IMG/VR virus record: IMGVR_UViG_3300009030_000001 | Coordinates: 1-64,000 of that record | Source: a virus | Strand: one strand, 5' to 3' | Length of the DNA stretch: 64,000 nucleotides | In this document: positions 3,274 to 48,362 of the stretch, piece by piece | Layout: each line of letters starts with the position of its first letter | How positions within the stretch are numbered: position 1 is the stretch's first letter | Made by a program: the position numbers and the translations under genes | Notes under the pieces: model-generated | Told to the model about the DNA's origin: nothing | What the model saw: only the letters and a program-made list of their open reading frames with translations | The model's database searches: none

Positions 3274-3734
3274 TGGGACGGGTCTACTCATCCGCAGCAG
3301 GCGTTCCATTGACGGTAACGCTGGCGTCGATCCCAGACGGCGACGGTAGGAAGTCGGCCTACGTCGACAATTCCAGCGATCGTTTCGAGGAGGTACGGCT
3401 CACCGGCATCATTCGAAGTGGCAGCTCCGCACCTACGGTTGGCACGATCTACGAATTCCATCTGTTCACTGGAGACGGTGCAACGGTGGCGATGAACACG
3501 GACGACAATGCAGGGGGAGATACCGCGATCACTGTCCCGATAGAGAACGCGCCCCTGGTCATAACTGCGGTCGTCACTGCAACGACGGGTAAGGACTTCT
3601 CGTTCGAGGTGATCTTCGACATCACCGGAGTCGATGAGTGGTCAATTGCGTTCATCAACGAGACTGGTCAGACCACTGACAGCACAGAGGCGAATTCGTT
3701 CATGAACTACGTCGCGTCGAAGGCGGCTGCGTAA
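3273..3734 (+). CDS. Hypothetical beta-rich virion protein
   Basis: The 153-residue product overlaps the previous stop by one base. It has the Thr/Val/Gly-rich composition of a beta sandwich, with FEEVRLTGIIRSG in the first half and FSFEVIFDITGVDEW in the second. This pattern is common in small phage decoration and tail proteins. No specific family is recognised, and the placement before the giant repeat protein supports a virion role. Confidence 0.55.
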   Translation: MGRVYSSAAGVPLTVTLASIPDGDGRKSAYVDNSSDRFEEVRLTGIIRSGSSAPTVGTIYEFHLFTGDGATVAMNTDDNAGGDTAITVPIENAPLVITAVVTATTGKDFSFEVIFDITGVDEWSIAFINETGQTTDSTEANSFMNYVASKAAA

Positions 3735-3737
3735 GTC

Positions 3738-4070
3738 GTGGCCATTCGCTGGAAAGCATGGTACGCCGACAACTCGGTCCGTTCTTCCGCGACGGATAGT
3801 ACAAGCGACCTACCGCGGGATGGGGTAGTGGTCATCATGCTCTGGACCGACGGCGGTCAGGTCATCTTGGAGGGCACCGATTACTACTTCGTTCTCGATG
3901 AGGTATGGGGCCAAGCCATGCCGAATGACTACCCACCCGGCACTCCCGAAGCGGTCGCCGCAGGTATCGAGGCACGCTACCCCGGTGCACGAGTGTTGCG
4001 GGGTCAGCAGGTTTCCGATAACCAAATGGTCATCACGCGGGAGGCGGCGTACGAAAGTGCGAGACCGTAG
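3738..4070 (+). CDS. Hypothetical small virion-associated protein
   Basis: The likely start is GTG 3738, following the previous stop by three bases. The 110-residue product begins with IRWKAWYADNSVRSS and has a beta-hairpin-like centre (GVVVIMLWTDGGQVILEGTDYYFV). Proteins of this shape often precede large tail or appendage genes, and this one sits immediately before the 1436-residue repeat protein. Role inferred from position only. Confidence 0.5.
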   Translation: MAIRWKAWYADNSVRSSATDSTSDLPRDGVVVIMLWTDGGQVILEGTDYYFVLDEVWGQAMPNDYPPGTPEAVAAGIEARYPGARVLRGQQVSDNQMVITREAAYESARP

Positions 4071-4072
4071 CC

Positions 4073-7000
4073 ATGGGTCAGAACTTCGTCCAAGAGGATT
4101 CGACCACCACCACCTGCGGTGCGGTGCAAGCGTGCGCGGCTAACTCGTTAGCCTCAGTCAATCAGGAACACCGAGCAACGGTTGCCGCGACTCCCGGTTC
4201 TACTGGCGATACAGGTCTAGGTGCGATCGACTCTGGAGTGACTGCGGGTGTGGTCATGTACGAGTGCGCGCCCAACCAAACGGACTGGGCTGCCGGTACC
4301 GCTGTTGTTCGAGTCAACGTCGGTGTGGGCAACATGCAATTGGATATCGTTGCCATCTACTTGTGTCAGAGAAGTAGTGCGTGCGGCGCAAAGGCAACAT
4401 ATGGGAGCCTGACGTCGATCGGGCAGAACATAGGCACAGCACAGGTCTACAGCTTCAACGTCACATGCAGCGCGATCACGGCGCTGACTTCGGATCTGCT
4501 CTACATCGTAGTCGAGTTCGCTGGGCAAGCAGGGATGAGTCAAACCTGCGGGATTACGCCTAGCGAGACCATTGACACACCGATCTCCACCGGGGGCCAA
4601 GACGTCTCGGTTGGAGCCATCGCGGCGGGCACCACGATCAACGAGCCACAGGTAGCCCAGACCGTCCCGGTGCCAGCAATCTCAGCGGCAACCACGATGG
4701 TTGCCCCCACGATTGCCCAGGGCCAGACCGTTGCCGTTCCAGCGATGGCGGCAGGAACGGCAATCGTCGAGCCGTCGCAGATCAATCAAACCGTGCCAGT
4801 CCCGGCTATGGCGGCGGTTGCAGCAATCCCTGCCCCGGTCCTGGATCGGACCATCCCGGTACCCGCGATCCCGGCTGGAAGCGCGATCATCGCGCCGACC
4901 GTCGCCCGCGTGGTGGACATCCCGGTTATGGCGGCGGGGACGGCAATCCTCGCCCCACCGATCAACCAGACTGTTCCGGTGCCAGCGATGTCCGCGGCGA
5001 CGGCAATCATCCAGCCGGTACTGGACCGCACCATTCCCGTCGAGGCGATCACGGCGGGCACCGCAATACCCGCTCCGACGATCGATGCCGGTGCGGGCAA
5101 CCAGAATGTTGCTGTTGCTGCGATCTCCGCTGGGACAGCGATCGTTACTCCCCAGGTAGACCAGACGGTTCCGATTCCATCGGTCGCGGCAGGGACGGCA
5201 ATCCTCGCGCCACAGGTTGACCAGACTGTGGACGTCTCGGCGATGGCTGCCGGGACTGCGATCCCTGCACCGACCCAAGTCGATCAGACTGTCCCGGCCC
5301 CGGCGATCGGCGCGGGTACTGCGATCGTCGCACCGACACAGATCGACCAGACGGTAATCGTCCCGGCGATCTCTGCGGCCACTGCGATCATCGCGCCGAC
5401 CATTTCGGTTCCAGGGACATCCAGTAGCGTTCGTGTTCGCGGCAAGTGGTCGAAGGTCAAGCCGCCGAACCCGGTGTTGCATACGGGGCACGGGCTCGCG
5501 AAGGGACTGATCTTGTTCTGCCCGTTGATGGAACGAACCATTAGCGCGGACGCGAAGCATCGGGATCTATCACTGTTTGGTCGCGACGGCACTCCTAACG
5601 GGTTAGCTAGTGGCTTCTTCGCTAGTCCCTATGGAAACGCCATAGACTTCCCCACAATCGACCCCATCATAGATTTCGGAGACGAGGGCTTCATACCGAA
5701 AGAGAACATTACGTTCATGTGGGTGGGTAAGGCTGATGGGACGGTCACCAACCGTGCGATATTCGGTCATGACGTCACTGGTGGAGGGGGTAACGATCAA
5801 CGAATTGATTTCTCGCTCGGGGCTGATGCTACCGAGGCAAGGTTCAAGATCAGGAACTCAGAACTTATTGCTACTGGGATTGTGTGGACCGATTGGTCAG
5901 TGTGGATATGCACGATTGGCTCACGGGGGATGGAGATTTGGAAGAATGGCATCAAGGTTGCGAGTAACGGCACCACTACCACGGTGCGGGTTCCTGGTGG
6001 TGCGACCTTTACCCTTGGTGAGAATGGCGGCTTCCGAGCACAGGAAGCAGACCATGTAGCTATTGCGGTTTGGGATCACCAGTTGCCGCTGGAATTGATC
6101 CAGCAACTCACACTCGACCCGTGGGAGGTCATCCGCCCCTCCAAGATCATCGACGTCGGTGGCGCGGCGGCGGGTGGTGATCAGAATGTAAGCGTCGGTG
6201 CCATCGCGGCGGGCACAGCGATCGTTGCTCCCCAGGTTGACCAGACGGTTGACGTTCCCGCGGTCGGCGCAGGCACCGCGATCGTCGAGCCACAGATCGA
6301 CCAGACGGTGCCGATCCCCGCCATCGCAGCAGGCACGGCAATTCCGAGCCAACAGGTAGCCCAGACCGTCCCGGTGCCAGCAATCTCAGCGGCAACCACG
6401 ATGGTTGCCCCCGCGATTGCCCAAGGCCAGACCGTGGCGGTGGATGCGATAGCGGCCGGGACGGCGATGCTCGCTCCGGTCGTGGATCAGACCGTGAACG
6501 TCGGCGCGGTACCTGCGGCAACCGCAAGTCCTGCGCCCACAATCGCACAGGGTCAGACTGTCGCCGTTGCAGCCATGTCGGTAGGCACGGCGATCCTAGC
6601 GCCGACGCTCGACCGCACAATTCCTGTCCCTGCCATGGCCGCTGCCACCGCTGCACTGGCTCCACAGGTCGATCAGACGGTGAACGTCGGCGCGATGTCA
6701 GCCACGGCGGTGATTCCGGCGCCCACGGTCGCCCAGGGTCAGACCGTCGCAGTCGGGCCCATGGCTGCGGGGACTGCGGTAGTTGCGCCGCAGATTGACC
6801 AGACCGTGCCCGTTGGGACGATACCGGCCGCGACAGCCTCCCCCGCGCCCGCTGTGGCCGCCGGTCAGGACGTAGCGGTTCCGGCAATGGCCGCAGGCGC
6901 AGCTGCACCAGCGCCCGCACAGGTAGCCCAGACCGTCCCGGTGCCAGCGATCCCGGCGGCGACCGCCATCCCGGCCCCCGTTCTCGACCGGACTATCCCG

Positions 7001-28906: not shown

Positions 28907-29139
28907 AGCTCTTCTCCGGCTACTTCAAGACCAGCGACGGCCGCAAGTGGTCGGTAGCGTTCCGCGCCCATAGCTGGGACGACGCCTTCTCGCTTGCAGA
29001 CCTGTTCGGGGTCACGGTCGAGGGAACTCTCGTCGCTACGTACGACGCTGACACGGGCGAAGAGAAACCGGGCGTTGCTCACTTCGCGGCATGGAACTGC
29101 GACGGAGAGCGTTTCTACCAGGAGGTTGAGACCCCATGA
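28903..29139 (+). CDS. Hypothetical protein
   Basis: ATG 28903 overlaps the previous stop (ATGA) and gives 78 residues (MKLFSGYFKTSDGRKWSVAF, then WDDAFSLADLFGVTVEG). The WDDAxxLA segment resembles small phage proteins with a DxAxxLAxxxG helix. Function unknown. Confidence 0.5.
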   Translation: MKLFSGYFKTSDGRKWSVAFRAHSWDDAFSLADLFGVTVEGTLVATYDADTGEEKPGVAHFAAWNCDGERFYQEVETP

Positions 29140-29633
29140 AGCTCACCAAGAATCTCTGGGACGTAGCGAGGGAGGAGATGCCCGAGAAGGTGCAGGATCG
29201 GTTTTGGGACAAGGTGCGGAAGCCGAACGCCAACGGCTGTTGGCTGTGGAATGCCGCAACAGACACGGGCGGCTACGGTCAGTTCTGTTACCCCAGAGAC
29301 AAGGCCCTCTTGTCTCACCGAGTTGCCTACGAGTTACTGGTAGGACCAATCCCGGCAGGGCTTGTGATTGACCACTTCTACTGCCAGACCCCGGCCTGTG
29401 TGAATCCGTCACACCTTGAGGTGGTGACCCACAGGGCCAACACTCTTCGCGGCAAATCCGTTCCCGCTGAGAACGCCAGGAAAACCGAGTGCAAGAACGG
29501 CCATCCATTCACCGAGAAGAACACACGCATCAGTTCGATCGGAGGGAGGGTTTGCAGGGAGTGCCGCCGGGCGTACGGCAGGCGCTACTATCAAGAGAAC
29601 TATTCGGTAGCAGCGAGGGAAGCCACCCAATGA
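29136..29633 (+). CDS. HNH homing endonuclease (copy 1)
   Basis: The 165-residue product starts with a RFWDKVRKPNANGCWLW segment, then YGQFCYPRDKALLSHRVAYE, IDHFYCQTPACVNPSHLE and a C-terminal ARKTECKNGHPFTEKNT zinc region with CRECRR. This is the HNH_3-type free-standing homing nuclease layout; the catalytic His is in IDH. It shares its entire architecture with the gene at 35973. Such genes nick or cut DNA near their insertion site. Confidence 0.85.
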   Translation: MKLTKNLWDVAREEMPEKVQDRFWDKVRKPNANGCWLWNAATDTGGYGQFCYPRDKALLSHRVAYELLVGPIPAGLVIDHFYCQTPACVNPSHLEVVTHRANTLRGKSVPAENARKTECKNGHPFTEKNTRISSIGGRVCRECRRAYGRRYYQENYSVAAREATQ

Positions 29634-35846: not shown

Positions 35847-35972
35847 ACACCAACACTCTTTGGCGTGGTAGACTGGCCTTCTCCATCGCGGGCAACCGTC
35901 GATCGCGGGGGGTGGTTCCAAGCCGCCCTGCCCAGCGGTGGTTTTCTTGGACGCATCACTTGGAGGTGCAAC
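35847..35972 (+). other. Structured leader of the second HNH gene
   Basis: This 126-base gap contains nested inverted repeats: TCCAAG/CTTGGA enclosing CCGC/GCGG, and CACC/GGTG pairs upstream. A TAGACT box at 35869 could be a -10 but no -35 fits well. A GGAGG site precedes GTG 35973. A folded 5' leader that limits nuclease translation is inferred. Confidence 0.35.
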
Positions 35973-36437
35973 GTGAAGACAATCGAAGAACGGTTCTGGG
36001 CGAAGGTCGAGAAGAGACCTGACGGATGCTGGGAGTGGACCGGGGGCACAACAGGGAGCACCGGCTACGGCCAGTTTTGGGTAAAGCATCGGCACCAACT
36101 GGCTCACCGATTCTCTTACACGGTGATTCACGGCTTGGAGATCCCTCCAGGGCTGACCATCGACCACCTGTGTCGGAACCGGCTGTGCGTGAATCCGGCT
36201 CACCTAGAGCCCGTGACCAATCGGGTGAACGTCCTGCGAGGTAATGGGCCTGCGGCCCGGAACGCGAAGAAGACCCACTGCAAACGCGGCCACGAGTTCA
36301 CGCCAGAAAACACCTATCGACAACGCCGCAAGAGGGGAGTCGTCGCTAGGTTGCGTCGGACGTGTCGGACGTGCCGGCGCCGCCTCGAACATGAGTATCG
36401 GAGGAGGGTGCGATTATCGGCACGGCCGAAGTCGTAG
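35973..36437 (+). CDS. HNH homing endonuclease (copy 2)
   Basis: GTG 35973 with a TGGAGG site upstream gives 154 residues: RFWAKVEKRPDGCWEW, YGQFWVKHRHQLAHRFSYTV, IDHLCRNRLCVNPAHLEPVT and ARNAKKTHCKRGHEF with a terminal CRTCRR. It matches the nuclease at 29136 motif for motif. Its end overlaps the truncated ASCH gene, so insertion of this element may have destroyed that gene. Confidence 0.85.
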   Translation: MKTIEERFWAKVEKRPDGCWEWTGGTTGSTGYGQFWVKHRHQLAHRFSYTVIHGLEIPPGLTIDHLCRNRLCVNPAHLEPVTNRVNVLRGNGPAARNAKKTHCKRGHEFTPENTYRQRRKRGVVARLRRTCRTCRRRLEHEYRRRVRLSARPKS

Positions 36438-39913: not shown

Positions 39914-41251
39914 ATGACTGAAGAGACCTTCTCCGACCTGACACTGATCGGGCTTCGCGTCCGTGATTTCATGCGTGTCAGTCTTGTCGAACTCAAACCG
40001 GACGAGTCTGGAACGATCGAACTACGCGGTGCGAATGCTGCTGGCAAGACGAGCGTGATTTGGGCGATCTGGGCGGCCTTGGGCGGTGGCCGCGTGTCGC
40101 CGGATCGACCCATCAAGGAAGGCGCGGAAGAAGCGTCGGTCATGCTCGACTTTGGTGACATCCTAGTCAAGCGGACCTGGGACGAGACCGGCACCAAGCT
40201 CGAAGTGCGACGGTCCAGCGATGGCACCACGATCAAGTCGCCGCAGAAGCTGTTGGACTCGCTCGTGTCCCAGTTCGTCGACCCGTGCCAGTTCCTCATG
40301 CTTCGACCCGAGGATCAGGCCGCGCAGGTTCTCGCCATGACAGGGTTAGCCGAACCACTGAGAGAACTGGACGACAAGGAAGAACGGGCGACGGAGGTTC
40401 GACGGGATCTTGGTCGAGATATGAAGCGGGCGCAAGGCGCCCACAGAACCGCGGCGGATGATCTTCCCGCACTCGACAAGGACGCGCCATCCATCTCGGA
40501 TGCGGCGGTAGCACTGAAGACGGAGACCGATTACTTTTTGCTACACACGTCGGAGAAGGAGAGTTTGGACTATGCCGTGCGCGACATCGATCGTGTGAAG
40601 GGATATATCACGACGCTGACCGAAGAGATCGCAGCGCGGACCACGCAGATTGGCGAACGCCAAGAGCAGTTGACGCGAACCCAAGGGGCGATTGTCGCGC
40701 ACACGAAATACCTCGCCGACAATCGCCAACCGGATCTTGACGGTGCGCAGAAGGCTTTGGACCTTGCAGAGACCCAGGCTGGAGCAGTCGCGGCACACAA
40801 GAACGAGAGGGATCTCAACACGGCGTTCTGCGCCGCGAAGAAACTGCACGACGGCGCCGAACATCGGGTGAAGGAGATTCGGTCGAAGCGCGCAACGATT
40901 CTGGAGGGCGCGGAGTTCCCGGTGGCCGCAATGAGCTACGACGCGGACGCGAAGACCCTGATGCTCGGAACGGTATCGTTCACGCAGGCGTCCAGCGCGG
41001 AACAGTTGAAAGCATCGATTGAGTTAGCCATTGCGGGCAGCCCTGGGATCAAGCTCCTGTTCGTGCGCGACGCTTCGCTGCTAGATTCGGATTCGCTCAC
41101 CGTCATTCGAACCATGGCCGCAGAGCGAGGGTACCAAGTCATCCTTGAGATCGTAGACGAAGACCCGGAAGGCCCAGGCGTGTTCATCGAGGATGGATGC
41201 GTACGAGAACAGAGTGAACCAAACAAACCGACACCCAAGGCATATGAGTGA
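39914..41251 (+). CDS. RecF/SMC-type AAA ATPase
   Basis: The 445-residue product has a Walker A GANAAGKTS (39-47) within a RecF/Rad50-like N-terminal lobe (LIGLRVRDFMRVSLVELKPD). A central coiled coil spans about 215-315 (VKGYITTLTEEIAARTTQIG). A C-terminal lobe holds a Walker B-like IKLLFVRDASLLDSDSL. The short coiled coil indicates a compact SMC-like ATPase, common beside phage YqaJ/RecT modules. The last 13 codons are overlapped by the first unit of the repeat array, which begins at 41213. Confidence 0.75.
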   Translation: MTEETFSDLTLIGLRVRDFMRVSLVELKPDESGTIELRGANAAGKTSVIWAIWAALGGGRVSPDRPIKEGAEEASVMLDFGDILVKRTWDETGTKLEVRRSSDGTTIKSPQKLLDSLVSQFVDPCQFLMLRPEDQAAQVLAMTGLAEPLRELDDKEERATEVRRDLGRDMKRAQGAHRTAADDLPALDKDAPSISDAAVALKTETDYFLLHTSEKESLDYAVRDIDRVKGYITTLTEEIAARTTQIGERQEQLTRTQGAIVAHTKYLADNRQPDLDGAQKALDLAETQAGAVAAHKNERDLNTAFCAAKKLHDGAEHRVKEIRSKRATILEGAEFPVAAMSYDADAKTLMLGTVSFTQASSAEQLKASIELAIAGSPGIKLLFVRDASLLDSDSLTVIRTMAAERGYQVILEIVDEDPEGPGVFIEDGCVREQSEPNKPTPKAYE

Positions 41252-42038
41252 GCCAGACAGTCCGATACACATGCTCTCAGAGCGAACCAAGCCCCGCGAT
41301 ACCCACCGAGAATGAGTGAGCCAATCGTTGCGATACTCAGTCACTCCGAACGAGCCATCCACGTCGACACCCATACCACATGAGCGAACCAACTCCCCCG
41401 AAACCCAGAGACGATGAATGAGCCAGACTCTGCGATACCCACAGACGTCGATCGAACCAGAGACCCAGACACCCAGGCAAGAAGAGTGAGCCATCACGCC
41501 CGATACACACCCGTTGAGAGCGAACCACAGCCCTCGATACCCACGCACAGCGAGTGAACCACGTGAACGAACACCCAAGTGCAACGATTGATCCACACAA
41601 CCGGCGATCGAGCCAAGGATACTGATGTCCAAATCGTTCGAGCGAGTCAAAGAAACAGATACCCACACCATATGAGCGAACCAGCCGACCGGATGCCTAA
41701 AACCACAGAGTGAACCATCCAACATGATACCCACCCCCACGGAGTGAGTCAGGATCGTTGAAACACAAGGACTCGAAACGAACCACATGCCACGATGCCC
41801 AATTCGACAGAGTGAGCCACACCGAGTGACGCCCACTAGGCACGAACGAACCACGATGACCGATGCACAGAAAACAAGAGTGAACCAGGGCCACCGATAC
41901 CCAGATGCGATGAGTGAACCATGAGGGCCGATATCCAAGTCGGGTGAGTGAGCCAATAGCTGAGATACCCAGACGTCGTGAGCGAACCAGTACGAGCGAT
42001 ACCCAAACAGAACAAGTGAACCAAACAGGATAACAACC
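41213..42038 (+). repeat. TIGR-like dual-spacer array 1 (25 units of 34 nt)
   Basis: Units of exactly 34 bases start at 41213 and recur without phase change except unit 12 (41587), which lacks 14 bases. Each unit is box 1 (consensus ANYGARCCA, usually AGTGAGCCA or AGCGAACCA), 7 variable bases, box 2 (CGAYACCCA), and 9 bases that are variable except a nearly constant final G. The spacer segments differ in every unit. The last unit runs into the leader of the gene at 42039. The region has no coding frame of its own. Conserved paired boxes with unique short segments between them match the layout of tandem interspaced guide RNA arrays. Confidence 0.85.
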
Positions 42039-43151
42039 ATGACCGATACGAGTGTGCAGACCGCGTTAGACCTGACCCCCGCTGTTCAGCGGATAACGAA
42101 GGATCTACGCGAAGCCGTGAAGACCTTGAACGTGCAAGAGGCCCGGTACCTGGTCGACTACTACTACCAGATGCAGGAGGATCGGAAGCGGTCGGCGAAT
42201 CAGGAGCGGGCGGTGAAGGACGGCGCTGATACGGAAGGCCCGTCCGGTGCGGTGGCTTGGCTCGCTGCGCAGGGAAGGTGCATGGAAAGCCGGGTCAGGA
42301 CGTTCCTGGACATCTACTCCGGCCACCACCCTCTTGGGATCTGGGCCCGATCGAACGTGGGAATTGGCCCTGTTATCGCAGCCGGATTGCTCGCGCACAT
42401 CGACATGGCGCAGGCGCCGACCGCAGGACACATCTGGTCGTTCGCAGGATTGGATCCACGGGTGAAGTGGACCGGTGCAACCGAGACGGCGAAGGAACTG
42501 GAAGCGTGCCTCGGCGGGCGGCCCGACAAGGTGTCCTACGAGCATCTCGTCATGGCGTGCGAACACTTCCGGCGCAAGCCAGCCACGATTGAACGCTACG
42601 CCAAGCCGCTCAACTGGACGACGTTGGTGAAGGCGCTGAACCGGCGGCCGTGGAACACGCCGCTCAAAACTCTGTGCTGGAAGATCGGGGAGAGCTTCTG
42701 CAAGGTCTCGGGTAATCCAGACGCCTTCTACGGCAAGCTGTACGCCGAGTACAGGGTCGAAGAAGACCGGCGGAATATCGCTGGCGAGTACATACAGCAG
42801 GCGTATGACAAACTCGAACGCTTCAAGATCGGCAAGGACACCGACGCGCACTTGTGGTATGCGGGATGCCTTACTTCTGTCAACGCGAAAGACATTCGAA
42901 AGGCGGAGTCGAGCAAGCGTATGGGAATGGCGAAGAAACTGGCAGGCGATCCCGGAAGCGGACAGCCGATGTTGCCACCGGCCCACTTGTTCGCTCGCGC
43001 CAAGCGCCGTGTTGTCAAATTATTCCTCAGCCACTATCACCACGTCGGCTACATGCTCTCGCACGACGGCGAAGAACCCCCGCGCCCCTGGGCCCTTTGC
43101 CAAGGGGGGCATACCCATTTCATCCCGCCGCCCAACCTAGACAAACTGTAG
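42039..43151 (+). CDS. Tas-like protein (Transposase_20/Nop-like, no nuclease domain)
   Basis: The 370-residue product has a helical N-terminus (1-95). A helix-hairpin-helix-like IS110 C-terminal module follows: VGIGPVIAAGLLAHID (107-122) and HIWSFAGLDPRVKW (131-144). Later come WNTPLKTLCWKIGESF and a basic end ARAKRRVVKLFLSHYHHVGY (319-338). The N-terminal DEDD RuvC-like domain of IS110 transposases is missing, no HNH motif is seen, and there are no insertion-sequence ends. It is flanked on both sides by the 34-nt dual-box arrays. Known Tas proteins are related to Nop and IS110 proteins, so a nuclease-less Tas (TasA-like) that binds the processed guide RNAs is the best reading. Targeting would then block, not cut, DNA. 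Confidence 0.75.
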   Translation: MTDTSVQTALDLTPAVQRITKDLREAVKTLNVQEARYLVDYYYQMQEDRKRSANQERAVKDGADTEGPSGAVAWLAAQGRCMESRVRTFLDIYSGHHPLGIWARSNVGIGPVIAAGLLAHIDMAQAPTAGHIWSFAGLDPRVKWTGATETAKELEACLGGRPDKVSYEHLVMACEHFRRKPATIERYAKPLNWTTLVKALNRRPWNTPLKTLCWKIGESFCKVSGNPDAFYGKLYAEYRVEEDRRNIAGEYIQQAYDKLERFKIGKDTDAHLWYAGCLTSVNAKDIRKAESSKRMGMAKKLAGDPGSGQPMLPPAHLFARAKRRVVKLFLSHYHHVGYMLSHDGEEPPRPWALCQGGHTHFIPPPNLDKL

Positions 43152-43528
43152 TCAGAACCCACGACACCCAGGACATCAGAACGAGTCAGTTCGAATGACA
43201 CACACACGATGAGAACGAGCCATGAAGTAGAATGCACAAAGTTGAGGATCGAGCCAAGATGAGCGATACCCAAACCCTCTGAGTGAGCCAACCCCTCCGA
43301 TACTCATCATCTAGGAGCTAGCCACCGTAGGCGATACCCATAACGCAAGATCGAGCCATGACAGGTAACACCCACAACATTAGATCGAACCACCACTGGT
43401 GATACACACTACCTCAGAGTGAGCCATAGGAGTTGATACCCAACATGATCGAACGAGCCACTTCTTGAGATGCCCAGAGCCTGAGATCGAGCCAGTCGCC
43501 AAGAGACCCATGAGAATCGAGCGAACCA
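43146..43528 (+). repeat. TIGR-like dual-spacer array 2 (11 units plus terminal box)
   Basis: Eleven units of exactly 34 bases start at 43146, overlapping the stop codon of the Tas-like gene, and a terminal box 1 lies at 43520-43528. Boxes are the same as in array 1 but slightly more diverged (ATCGAGCCA and AACGAGCCA are frequent). The 7-base and 9-base segments are unique and the G before box 1 is kept. The first box (CTGTAGTCA) is degenerate because it overlaps coding sequence. Confidence 0.85.
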
Positions 43529-43542
43529 CATAACCACATTTG

Positions 43543-43598
43543 GCACCGGGCAGGAGTTGACTCTCCTTCTTCCCCTTTTCCCGAACCCTGTCCGGTGC
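43543..43598 (+). other. Hairpin with pyrimidine-rich loop after array 2
   Basis: GCACCGGGCAGG (43543-43554) pairs with CCTGTCCGGTGC (43587-43598) over 12 positions including one G-U pair, leaving a 32-base loop rich in C and T. It begins 14 bases after the last array box and ends eight bases before the next start codon. It could mark the 3' end of the array transcript or control the winged-helix gene. Confidence 0.5.
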
Positions 43599-46900: not shown

Positions 46901-47137
46901 ATGAGAGAAGACCAAGCACAACGCTACATCGTCGAACTTGACGATGGCGACGGTCTGTGGTTTCCGATTCACTGCATTGGAGACCACCCTCATGGACTGA
47001 CGCAGGAACAGGCCAAGGTCCGCGCCCATGGCTACGCTGAAGGCCAAGCTACTGCGCGCATTGCTCCGGTCATAGGATTCAGGCGAGACAGCGGCGGACG
47101 CACCATCGAACCGATCTCGGGAAACGATGTCGTCTGA
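46901..47137 (+). CDS. Hypothetical small protein
   Basis: The 78-residue product (MREDQAQRYIVELDDGDGLW, then GLTQEQAKVRAHGYAEGQAT) looks like a small alpha/beta domain. Its start codon lies directly after a triple-hairpin leader and its end overlaps the ParB-methyltransferase gene by 11 bases. No family recognised. Confidence 0.5.
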   Translation: MREDQAQRYIVELDDGDGLWFPIHCIGDHPHGLTQEQAKVRAHGYAEGQATARIAPVIGFRRDSGGRTIEPISGNDVV

Positions 47138-48362
47138 CAACACGCACATCGTCGAACAGCTACGGTCGCTGGCGCGGCCCGTGGACGAGTTCACGCTCGA
47201 TCCCACCAACGCCAGGATCCACGACGAAGACAACCTGGAAGTGATCAGGACTTCGTTGAAGAAGTACGGCCAGCGGCAGCCGATCGTCGTCCAGAAGGAC
47301 GGCATGATCGTTCGGGCCGGGAACGCGCGCCTGATCGTCGCCAGGAAGCTGGGGTGGAAGACCATCGCCGCGGTGGTGATCGACGAGCCTGACCTTGCCG
47401 CAACTGCTTACGGCATAATCGATAATCGTAGCAGCGAAATGGCCGAGTGGAGTGACGAGACCCTAGCGAAGCTGCTGGCGTCGATTCAGTCCGAGAATCC
47501 GGAGATGCTAGAAGCCACCGGATTCGACGAATCGGAGTTGGAAGAATTGCTAGCCGAGATCGCAGGCGAACCGGACGTGATCCAAGATGACGTCCCGGAA
47601 CCGCCAGCGGAACCGGTCGCAAAGCTCGGGCAGTTGTGGGCGTTGGGTGATCATCGTCTCTTATGTGGTGACTCGACGAAGACGGATGACGTGGAGCGTC
47701 TGATGGACGGCGAGAAGGCTCGGATGGTATTCACCGACCCGCCGTACGCGCTATTCGGCAACTCGACTGGGGTTGCTGGGATAGTGGACGACAAGATGAC
47801 GCGTCCGTTCTTCTTGGAGGTATTCAGGCAGAGCCGAGCCTTCACCAAGTTGTTCGCCCATATCTACGTCTGCTGTGATTGGCACTCGGCGTTTTCGTTG
47901 CAAGCAATGGCCCGAGAAGCCGGGCTGACGGAAAAGAACCTTTGCATCTGGGACAAGGGGGACGGTGGCATTGGCGCTATGTATCAGCAGTGTTACGAAA
48001 TGGTTTGGTTTTTCGCTAATTCCCCCATAGCCGCCGGGGCGACCGCCAAGAAAGCCGTAGGGGAACGAACAATCAACGGCAAGCCGAACATCTGGCGATT
48101 TCCCCGCGAGTTGGCGGACAGATCGCACAATGCGCAGAAACCGGTGGAGATGGTTGCTGGTGCGGTGAGTAACAGCAGCGACCCAAAGGATATAGTACTG
48201 GATTTGTTCTTAGGCGGTGGAACCACTCTGATTGCCGCCGAACAACTTGATCGCACTTGTTACGCAATGGATCTAGAGCCAAAGTATTGCGACGTCACCA
48301 TTGCCAGATGGGAGAAGCTGACCGGCCAGAAGGCAGAACTCTTGGAGGAATCCCATGCCTAA
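47127..48362 (+). CDS. ParB-like domain fused to DNA methyltransferase
   Basis: The 411-residue product has a ParB/Srx-like N-terminal domain (about 15-100, DPTNARIHDEDNL and VRAGNARLIVARKLGW). A beta-class amino-methyltransferase follows, with motif IV TDPPY at 203-207 and motif I LDLFLGGGTTLIAAE at 358-372. Such fusions are common in phages and methylate adenine or N4-cytosine, protecting phage DNA from restriction or marking it for packaging. The neighbouring small-terminase-like gene fits a packaging link. Confidence 0.85.
   Translation: MSSDNTHIVEQLRSLARPVDEFTLDPTNARIHDEDNLEVIRTSLKKYGQRQPIVVQKDGMIVRAGNARLIVARKLGWKTIAAVVIDEPDLAATAYGIIDNRSSEMAEWSDETLAKLLASIQSENPEMLEATGFDESELEELLAEIAGEPDVIQDDVPEPPAEPVAKLGQLWALGDHRLLCGDSTKTDDVERLMDGEKARMVFTDPPYALFGNSTGVAGIVDDKMTRPFFLEVFRQSRAFTKLFAHIYVCCDWHSAFSLQAMAREAGLTEKNLCIWDKGDGGIGAMYQQCYEMVWFFANSPIAAGATAKKAVGERTINGKPNIWRFPRELADRSHNAQKPVEMVAGAVSNSSDPKDIVLDLFLGGGTTLIAAEQLDRTCYAMDLEPKYCDVTIARWEKLTGQKAELLEESHA

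Follow-up and report, generated by a model that had tools for sequence, protein, structure and literature searches.

A TIGR-TasA-type locus on a tailed phage: a nuclease-free Nop-domain protein between two arrays of fast-changing dual-spacer guides

The stretch of DNA analysed here in full, which we call the window, comprises bases 1-64000 of the 73,154-bp IMG/VR virus record IMGVR_UViG_3300009030_000001, a tailed phage contig with portal, major head protein and terminase-like genes. Between an ATPase gene and a set of small genes of unknown function it contains a gene, tasA, enclosed by two repeat arrays, and the whole constitutes a well-supported member of the published TIGR-TasA kind of locus, in which the absence of a nuclease is not new. 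The features of the locus, with coordinates in the window, are:

39914..41251, + strand: AAA_23/SbcC-like ATPase gene (phrog_1499), the upstream gene, whose 3' end overlaps the first array unit
41212..42023, + strand: upstream TIGR array, 23 regular units of 34 nucleotides (nt) and one collapsed 20-nt unit
41586-41605: the collapsed 20-nt unit of the upstream array
42014-42023: closing edge repeat of the upstream array
42039..43151, + strand: tasA, encoding a solo-Nop TIGR-associated protein of 370 amino acids (NF052498, PDB profile search, AlphaFold2/Foldseek)
42474..42647, + strand: segment of tasA for an optional helical insertion (residues ~146-203)
42864..42971, + strand: segment of tasA for a second, shorter optional insertion (residues ~276-311)
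43145..43528, + strand: downstream TIGR array, 11 units, with a truncated first edge repeat that contains the tasA stop codon
43519-43528: closing edge repeat of the downstream array
43543..43598, + strand: strong hairpin (-26.4 kcal/mol, z -4.2) directly 3' of the downstream array

The DNA on either side of the tasA open reading frame shows a 34-nt periodicity, and the array regions hold 34 regular units (23 upstream and 11 downstream) passing a score that was passed by a mean of 0.12 and a maximum of 1 unit in 300 dinucleotide shuffles. Column statistics resolved each unit into an edge repeat of 10 nt (GANYGARCCA), spacer A of 8 nt, a loop repeat of 8 nt (GAYACCCA) and spacer B of 8 nt, in that order. 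Both lengths fall within the 8-12 nt of the two alternating repeats of TIGR arrays. GA opens either repeat and CA, mostly as part of CCA, closes it, so that box C (CCA) and box D elements are present, and the unit is 34 nt long because its loop repeat has 8 instead of 10 nt. A first-pass annotation of this DNA had placed arrays on both sides of a 370-residue protein and recognized the period, and both points hold; its extent of 41213-43528 is corrected to 41212-42023 plus 43145-43528, and its count of about 36 units to the 34 regular ones and the collapsed unit. It had also seen two conserved 9-nt boxes and unique segments of 7 and 9 nt: the two conserved blocks are there, with lengths of 10 and 8 nt, and the spacers are 8+8, the misreading having arisen because the conserved G before the edge box was put in spacer B and a variable base before the loop box was counted as conserved. 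The 34-nt unit, which had been supposed to be unusual, is found elsewhere too: the 8-nt loop repeat that produces it recurs in at least seven relatives (L002, L004, L061, L076, L328, L347 and L348).

The 370-residue protein scored 153.4 bits with the NCBIfam TIGR-Tas model NF052498 (cut-off 100) and 28.8 bits with the NCBIfam IS110 model (cut-off 140), and Pfam recovered the Transposase_20 core (9e-07) and no other domain, in keeping with the IS110 C-terminal-type motif noted at first. A profile built from 60 family members retrieved TasR (9mty, 6.6e-28) and TasH (21kl, 4.7e-17) from the PDB, with much weaker matches to IS621 (E 1e-5) and ISCro4. In Foldseek, the best matches of an AlphaFold2 model computed from the 60-member alignment (predicted local distance difference test, pLDDT, 91.4; predicted template modelling score, pTM, 0.88) were chains of TasH and TasR (E 1e-5 to 3e-4), ahead of IS110 recombinases. 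Pfam found neither a RuvC nor an HNH domain in the protein, the N-terminus of which is helical in the model. Further, the profile alignment revealed no conserved serine in TasA proteins at the position of the catalytic S241 of IS621; this residue would map at about residue 143, right after the shared FAGL-P motif, and the residue following the equivalent position is an invariant tryptophan in TasA proteins. Given the TIGR-Tas match and the TasH/TasR-like predicted fold, together with the lack of a RuvC or HNH domain and of the catalytic serine, the protein is, as judged from its sequence and model, a TasA without nuclease or recombinase active site. The earlier proposal of a TIGR-Tas relative devoid of a nuclease domain is thereby borne out, the profile search that it suggested as a check and the predicted fold having both come down on its side. 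The model NF052498 is named 'RNA-guided endonuclease', and a solo-Nop protein lacking a nuclease domain nevertheless passes it; hence, automatic annotation will mislabel TasA proteins. Of the two insertions, the first (residues ~146-203) is a small helical domain common to 11 of 59 aligned relatives, lies where IS110 enzymes have their catalytic loop, and yielded no relatives in Pfam, PDB sequence or fold searches; the second (residues ~276-311) is found in a minority of relatives.

Viral relatives numbered 80 in one scan, and a profile scan matched 421 stretches. Matches in genomes are mainly from Acidobacteria, with others in Halomonas, Gemmatimonadetes, Kiritimatiellae and further groups; the window protein and DNA gave no match to named phages, and a relative used as the query matched Salicola CGphi29, Gordonia Morrissey and Microcystis Mvi-JY20. 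Arrays with a period of 34-36 adjoin the tas gene in most relatives; GAGCGAGCCA is an example of their edge repeats and GAGAGAACCA of their loop repeats. An automatic parser recovered the anatomy of edge, loop and 8+8 spacers in 60 of the 80 viral relatives taken first, each with 5 or more parsed units, and in 39 of another 87. In both repeats positions 3 and 8 co-vary as G-C, A-T and T-A: the two positions are paired in 9 of 11 distinct consensus edge repeats (3.8 expected, p 0.002) and in 15 of 18 distinct consensus loop repeats (9.2 expected, p 0.0004), and a base pair matching positions 3-8 has been reported for TasR. These compensatory changes across the family support a role of the repeats at the level of RNA. 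No constant neighbouring partner gene was found among the relatives. Two named phages carry arrays of their own. In Microcystis phage Mvi-JY20 (L171, PP438412.1) a TIGR array at 4618-4970 (edge ATGCGAGCCA, loop ACGAAACCCA, 8+8 spacers) lies directly 3' of a Tas-like gene annotated 'hypothetical protein' and is followed by a terminator-like hairpin. In Gordonia phage Morrissey (L169, MH271305.1) palindrome-bounded units with two short variable segments, located at 3640-3900 and 4740-4870, flank a Tas-like gene and look like a stem-loop type of TIGR array; as its host group is well sampled, this phage is suited to target searches.

A comparison of strains shows that the guides change far faster than the gene between them. 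In a sister phage, L002, tas is 86% identical to that of the window in DNA and 90% in protein, the repeats are the same and the number of units is similar; yet the two share only 6 units, of 36 in the window and 33 in L002 as counted by parsers that include a few terminal half-units. The shared units keep their order and new units are interspersed among them. In further strain pairs, the tas genes of which are 95-98% identical, 5-15 of 19-48 units are common to both. The differences are mostly collinear gains or losses of whole units in the array interior, a description in which gain and loss are not told apart; the pair L034/L036 shows one moved block besides, and the close relatives L034, L036, L039, L040 and L044 have 14 to 48 units, with blocks moved. 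Such whole-unit, interior and largely collinear change speaks against a CRISPR-like mode in which units are added at one end only. A few units, chiefly between L034 and L040, share a single spacer, some keeping spacer B but not spacer A, which suggests recombination at the loop repeats. The guides are thus fast-changing, and their turnover is arms-race-like.

As the 3' end of the ATPase gene overlaps the first array unit, the array and tasA are probably transcribed together with it. The hairpin after the downstream array, the sequence of which is also found in L002, has no clear U tract and is a possible transcript end. Searches of the window for Rfam families and tRNA genes returned none. Elsewhere in the window, 4 kb downstream of tasA and not adjacent to it, a gene at 47127-48362 encodes an N6/N4 DNA methyltransferase with a fused ParB_N domain; ParB-like genes have been described in operons with some tasA genes (Faure et al. 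2025, PMC12045711). The segment 39386-39615, which closely precedes the ATPase gene, holds G+C-rich degenerate tandem repeats with units of ~49 and 98 nt, resembling GGCACGGC. Two further genes (29136-29633 and 35865-36437) match one and the same site of an Acidobacteriota contig (L269, ~1950-2390) at 45-48% identity, which suggests that this gene family is present twice in the phage.

Taken together, we think it probable, if well short of certain, that this is a TIGR-TasA system with which a tailed phage binds foreign DNA under RNA guidance without cutting it. The + strand transcript of the array, presumably shared with the ATPase gene and tasA, would be cut within the edge repeats to give short RNAs with two 8-nt spacers around the loop repeat, and a TasA dimer would hold one such RNA through the box C element (CCA) and the box D-like element (GA) that each of the two repeats carries. 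By analogy with TasR and TasH, spacer A would pair with one DNA strand and spacer B with the opposite strand immediately next to that site. In the absence of a nuclease or recombinase active site, TasA most likely acts by occupying the foreign DNA and bending it sharply, as its homologues lead one to expect, and its occupancy may keep competing phages or plasmids from being transcribed or replicated, with the phage's own genome being avoided. Repression or marking in place of cleavage, which the first-pass annotation had suggested, is also the guess most favoured for TasA in the literature. A more elaborate version, which we offer tentatively and regard as rather unlikely, is that phage TasA arrays form a fast-diversifying, self-avoiding anti-phage repertoire that gains and loses whole two-spacer interior units without known acquisition genes, and that the helical insertion adds an activity such as stronger strand separation or partner recruitment.

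What the guides might recognize was examined in the published canonical geometry (spacer B, a gap of 0-2, reverse complement of spacer A) by searching units in four strand arrangements with gaps 0-2 through phage DNA, full own contigs among it, in amounts that rose from 1.1 to 3.4 to 6 Mb. A scan of the viral collection with one guide conserved between the window and L002 hit 29 scattered contigs, none closely related to the window phage. No exact canonical match was found in the own genomes searched, and among 882 units there were two own-genome canonical matches with one mismatch, fewer than in the wrong geometries. At up to two mismatches the own genomes of 51 phages held 74 matches, where shuffled pairing predicted 99 (p about 0.005), including 4 against 5.8 in the window and 1 against 2.7 in L002, and no such shortage appeared in GC-matched foreign genomes, at other gaps or in other geometries. 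At gap 0 alone a second set also gave a low count (8 against 17.8), so that this class is low in both sets, in a comparison made post hoc. These counts are weakly suggestive of avoidance of the own genome by the guides.

Against RNA-guided interference stand the following points. The test of self-avoidance on that second set, 37 phages with the test fixed beforehand, gave 47 matches against 52.5 expected, a shortfall without significance (p 0.26). No natural target emerged from the 6 Mb, in which canonical exact matches numbered 18 against 15-20 in the three wrong geometries, 29 matches in contigs fetched by pattern having been excluded from the target counts; the paired opposite-strand spacer search recommended in the first-pass annotation therefore gave no excess. 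Inside the window array the 3-8 pair is often broken, 20 of 34 edge repeats pairing there as G-C or A-T. Finally, in the published test TasR gave E. coli no protection from phage or plasmid uptake (PMC12045711).

The discovery paper (Faure et al. 2025, PMC12045711) proposed that TasA may assist integration or recombination by bending DNA under RNA guidance, or act on the host chromosome at attachment sites or host genes, a role we consider rather unlikely here. A tyrosine integrase is present on 24 of 78 family contigs examined, but none was found on the source 73-kb contig. Transfer RNA genes are common phage integration sites, and a guide pair of L412 (10688) and L413 (11538), with spacers ACGTAGCT (B) and TCCAGTTG (A), is an exact, gap-0 canonical match to a tRNA gene (L277, ~9686); this is, however, the single exact tRNA gene match among 1433 units, with no general excess, and dozens of fast-changing guides exceed the needs of one attachment site. 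Guides that steer TasA to sites in its own genome, there to switch phage genes, would fit a locus that is surrounded by early genes for recombination and replication and probably belongs to their transcript, and a protein unable to cut would make self-targeting tolerable; the scarcity of canonical own-genome matches and the almost complete replacement of guides between sister phages with alike genes, the opposite of fixed self-regulation, nonetheless render this improbable.

Two further possibilities dispense with guide RNAs altogether. The repeats could be DNA sites for a protein, namely iterons or a partition centromere, as their regular, iteron-like spacing and the ParB_N-methyltransferase gene 4 kb away might intimate. 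Yet the spacers are fully variable and differ between sister phages, and the bases of the repeats change in a compensatory manner; the array has the same orientation as the operon, and production of 36-nt guide RNAs has been demonstrated for homologous arrays, so we regard this explanation as very improbable. That the gene is the remnant of an IS110-type transposase beside an unrelated tandem repeat has a negligible likelihood: the Transposase_20 match and the label 'transposase' of phrog_4285 speak for it, and are outweighed by the 28.8 against 140 bits of the IS110 model, the TIGR-Tas score above cut-off, the missing RuvC DEDD domain and S241-position serine, and the presence, in dozens of phages, of arrays built alike next to the gene. 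An IS110 transposon as such is ruled out by the curated cut-off and by the lack of both catalytic features (RuvC DEDD and serine).

RNA-guided binding by TasA thus remains our preferred interpretation. The 2025 discovery paper left open the function of nuclease-less TasA and the manner in which TIGR arrays come by new guides, and the window and L002 provide a natural experiment on both, in which protein and repeats are kept while nearly every guide has been exchanged. Target finding gains a firm parsing rule from the 8+8 geometry together with the compensatory changes in the repeats, and the features most worth following are the TasA insertion and the turnover of guides from one sister phage to the other.

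TasA is the commonest TIGR effector and already published (Faure et al. 2025, PMC12045711), and a comparison of the locus with characterized systems shows that: 1) the FpTIGR TIGR-TasA system of Flavonifractor plautii (PMC12045711) shares with it a solo Nop-domain protein, a dual edge/loop repeat array, arrays located up- and/or downstream, and truncation of terminal edge repeats, seen here in the first one of the downstream array. It differs in having spacers of 18 nt in all as against 8+8 nt, and the window is set apart by its 8-nt loop repeat and 34-nt units, two TasA insertions, rather degenerate repeats and ~34 units. 2) The SpTIGR TIGR-TasH system of Salicola phage CGphi29 is likewise phage-borne, with 8+8 spacers and an edge repeat, AAGCGAGCCA, resembling the GAGCGAGCCA of the window; its TasH, a proven RNA-guided nuclease, has an HNH nuclease that the window protein lacks, and its loop repeat is of 10 nt and its unit of 36 nt. 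3) TaTasR of TIGR-TasR (PDB 9mty) is the best sequence-profile match over the Nop domain (6.6e-28), but has an N-terminal RuvC nuclease, absent here, and 9+9-nt instead of 8+8 spacers. 4) VIPR (PMC13142463) is, like the reading favoured here, a case of phage-encoded RNA-guided DNA binding without cutting; its protein and array are unrelated, and it was ruled out because the window protein is of the Nop type and not a RAMP protein and the repeats are GANYGARCCA/GAYACCCA and not GGY/NN. 5) The IS110/IS621 bridge-RNA recombinases have the Nop/Tnp core in common with the window protein (IS621 profile E 1e-5), which in contrast to them has no RuvC DEDD domain and no catalytic serine, and is accompanied by a guide array where they have one bridge RNA.

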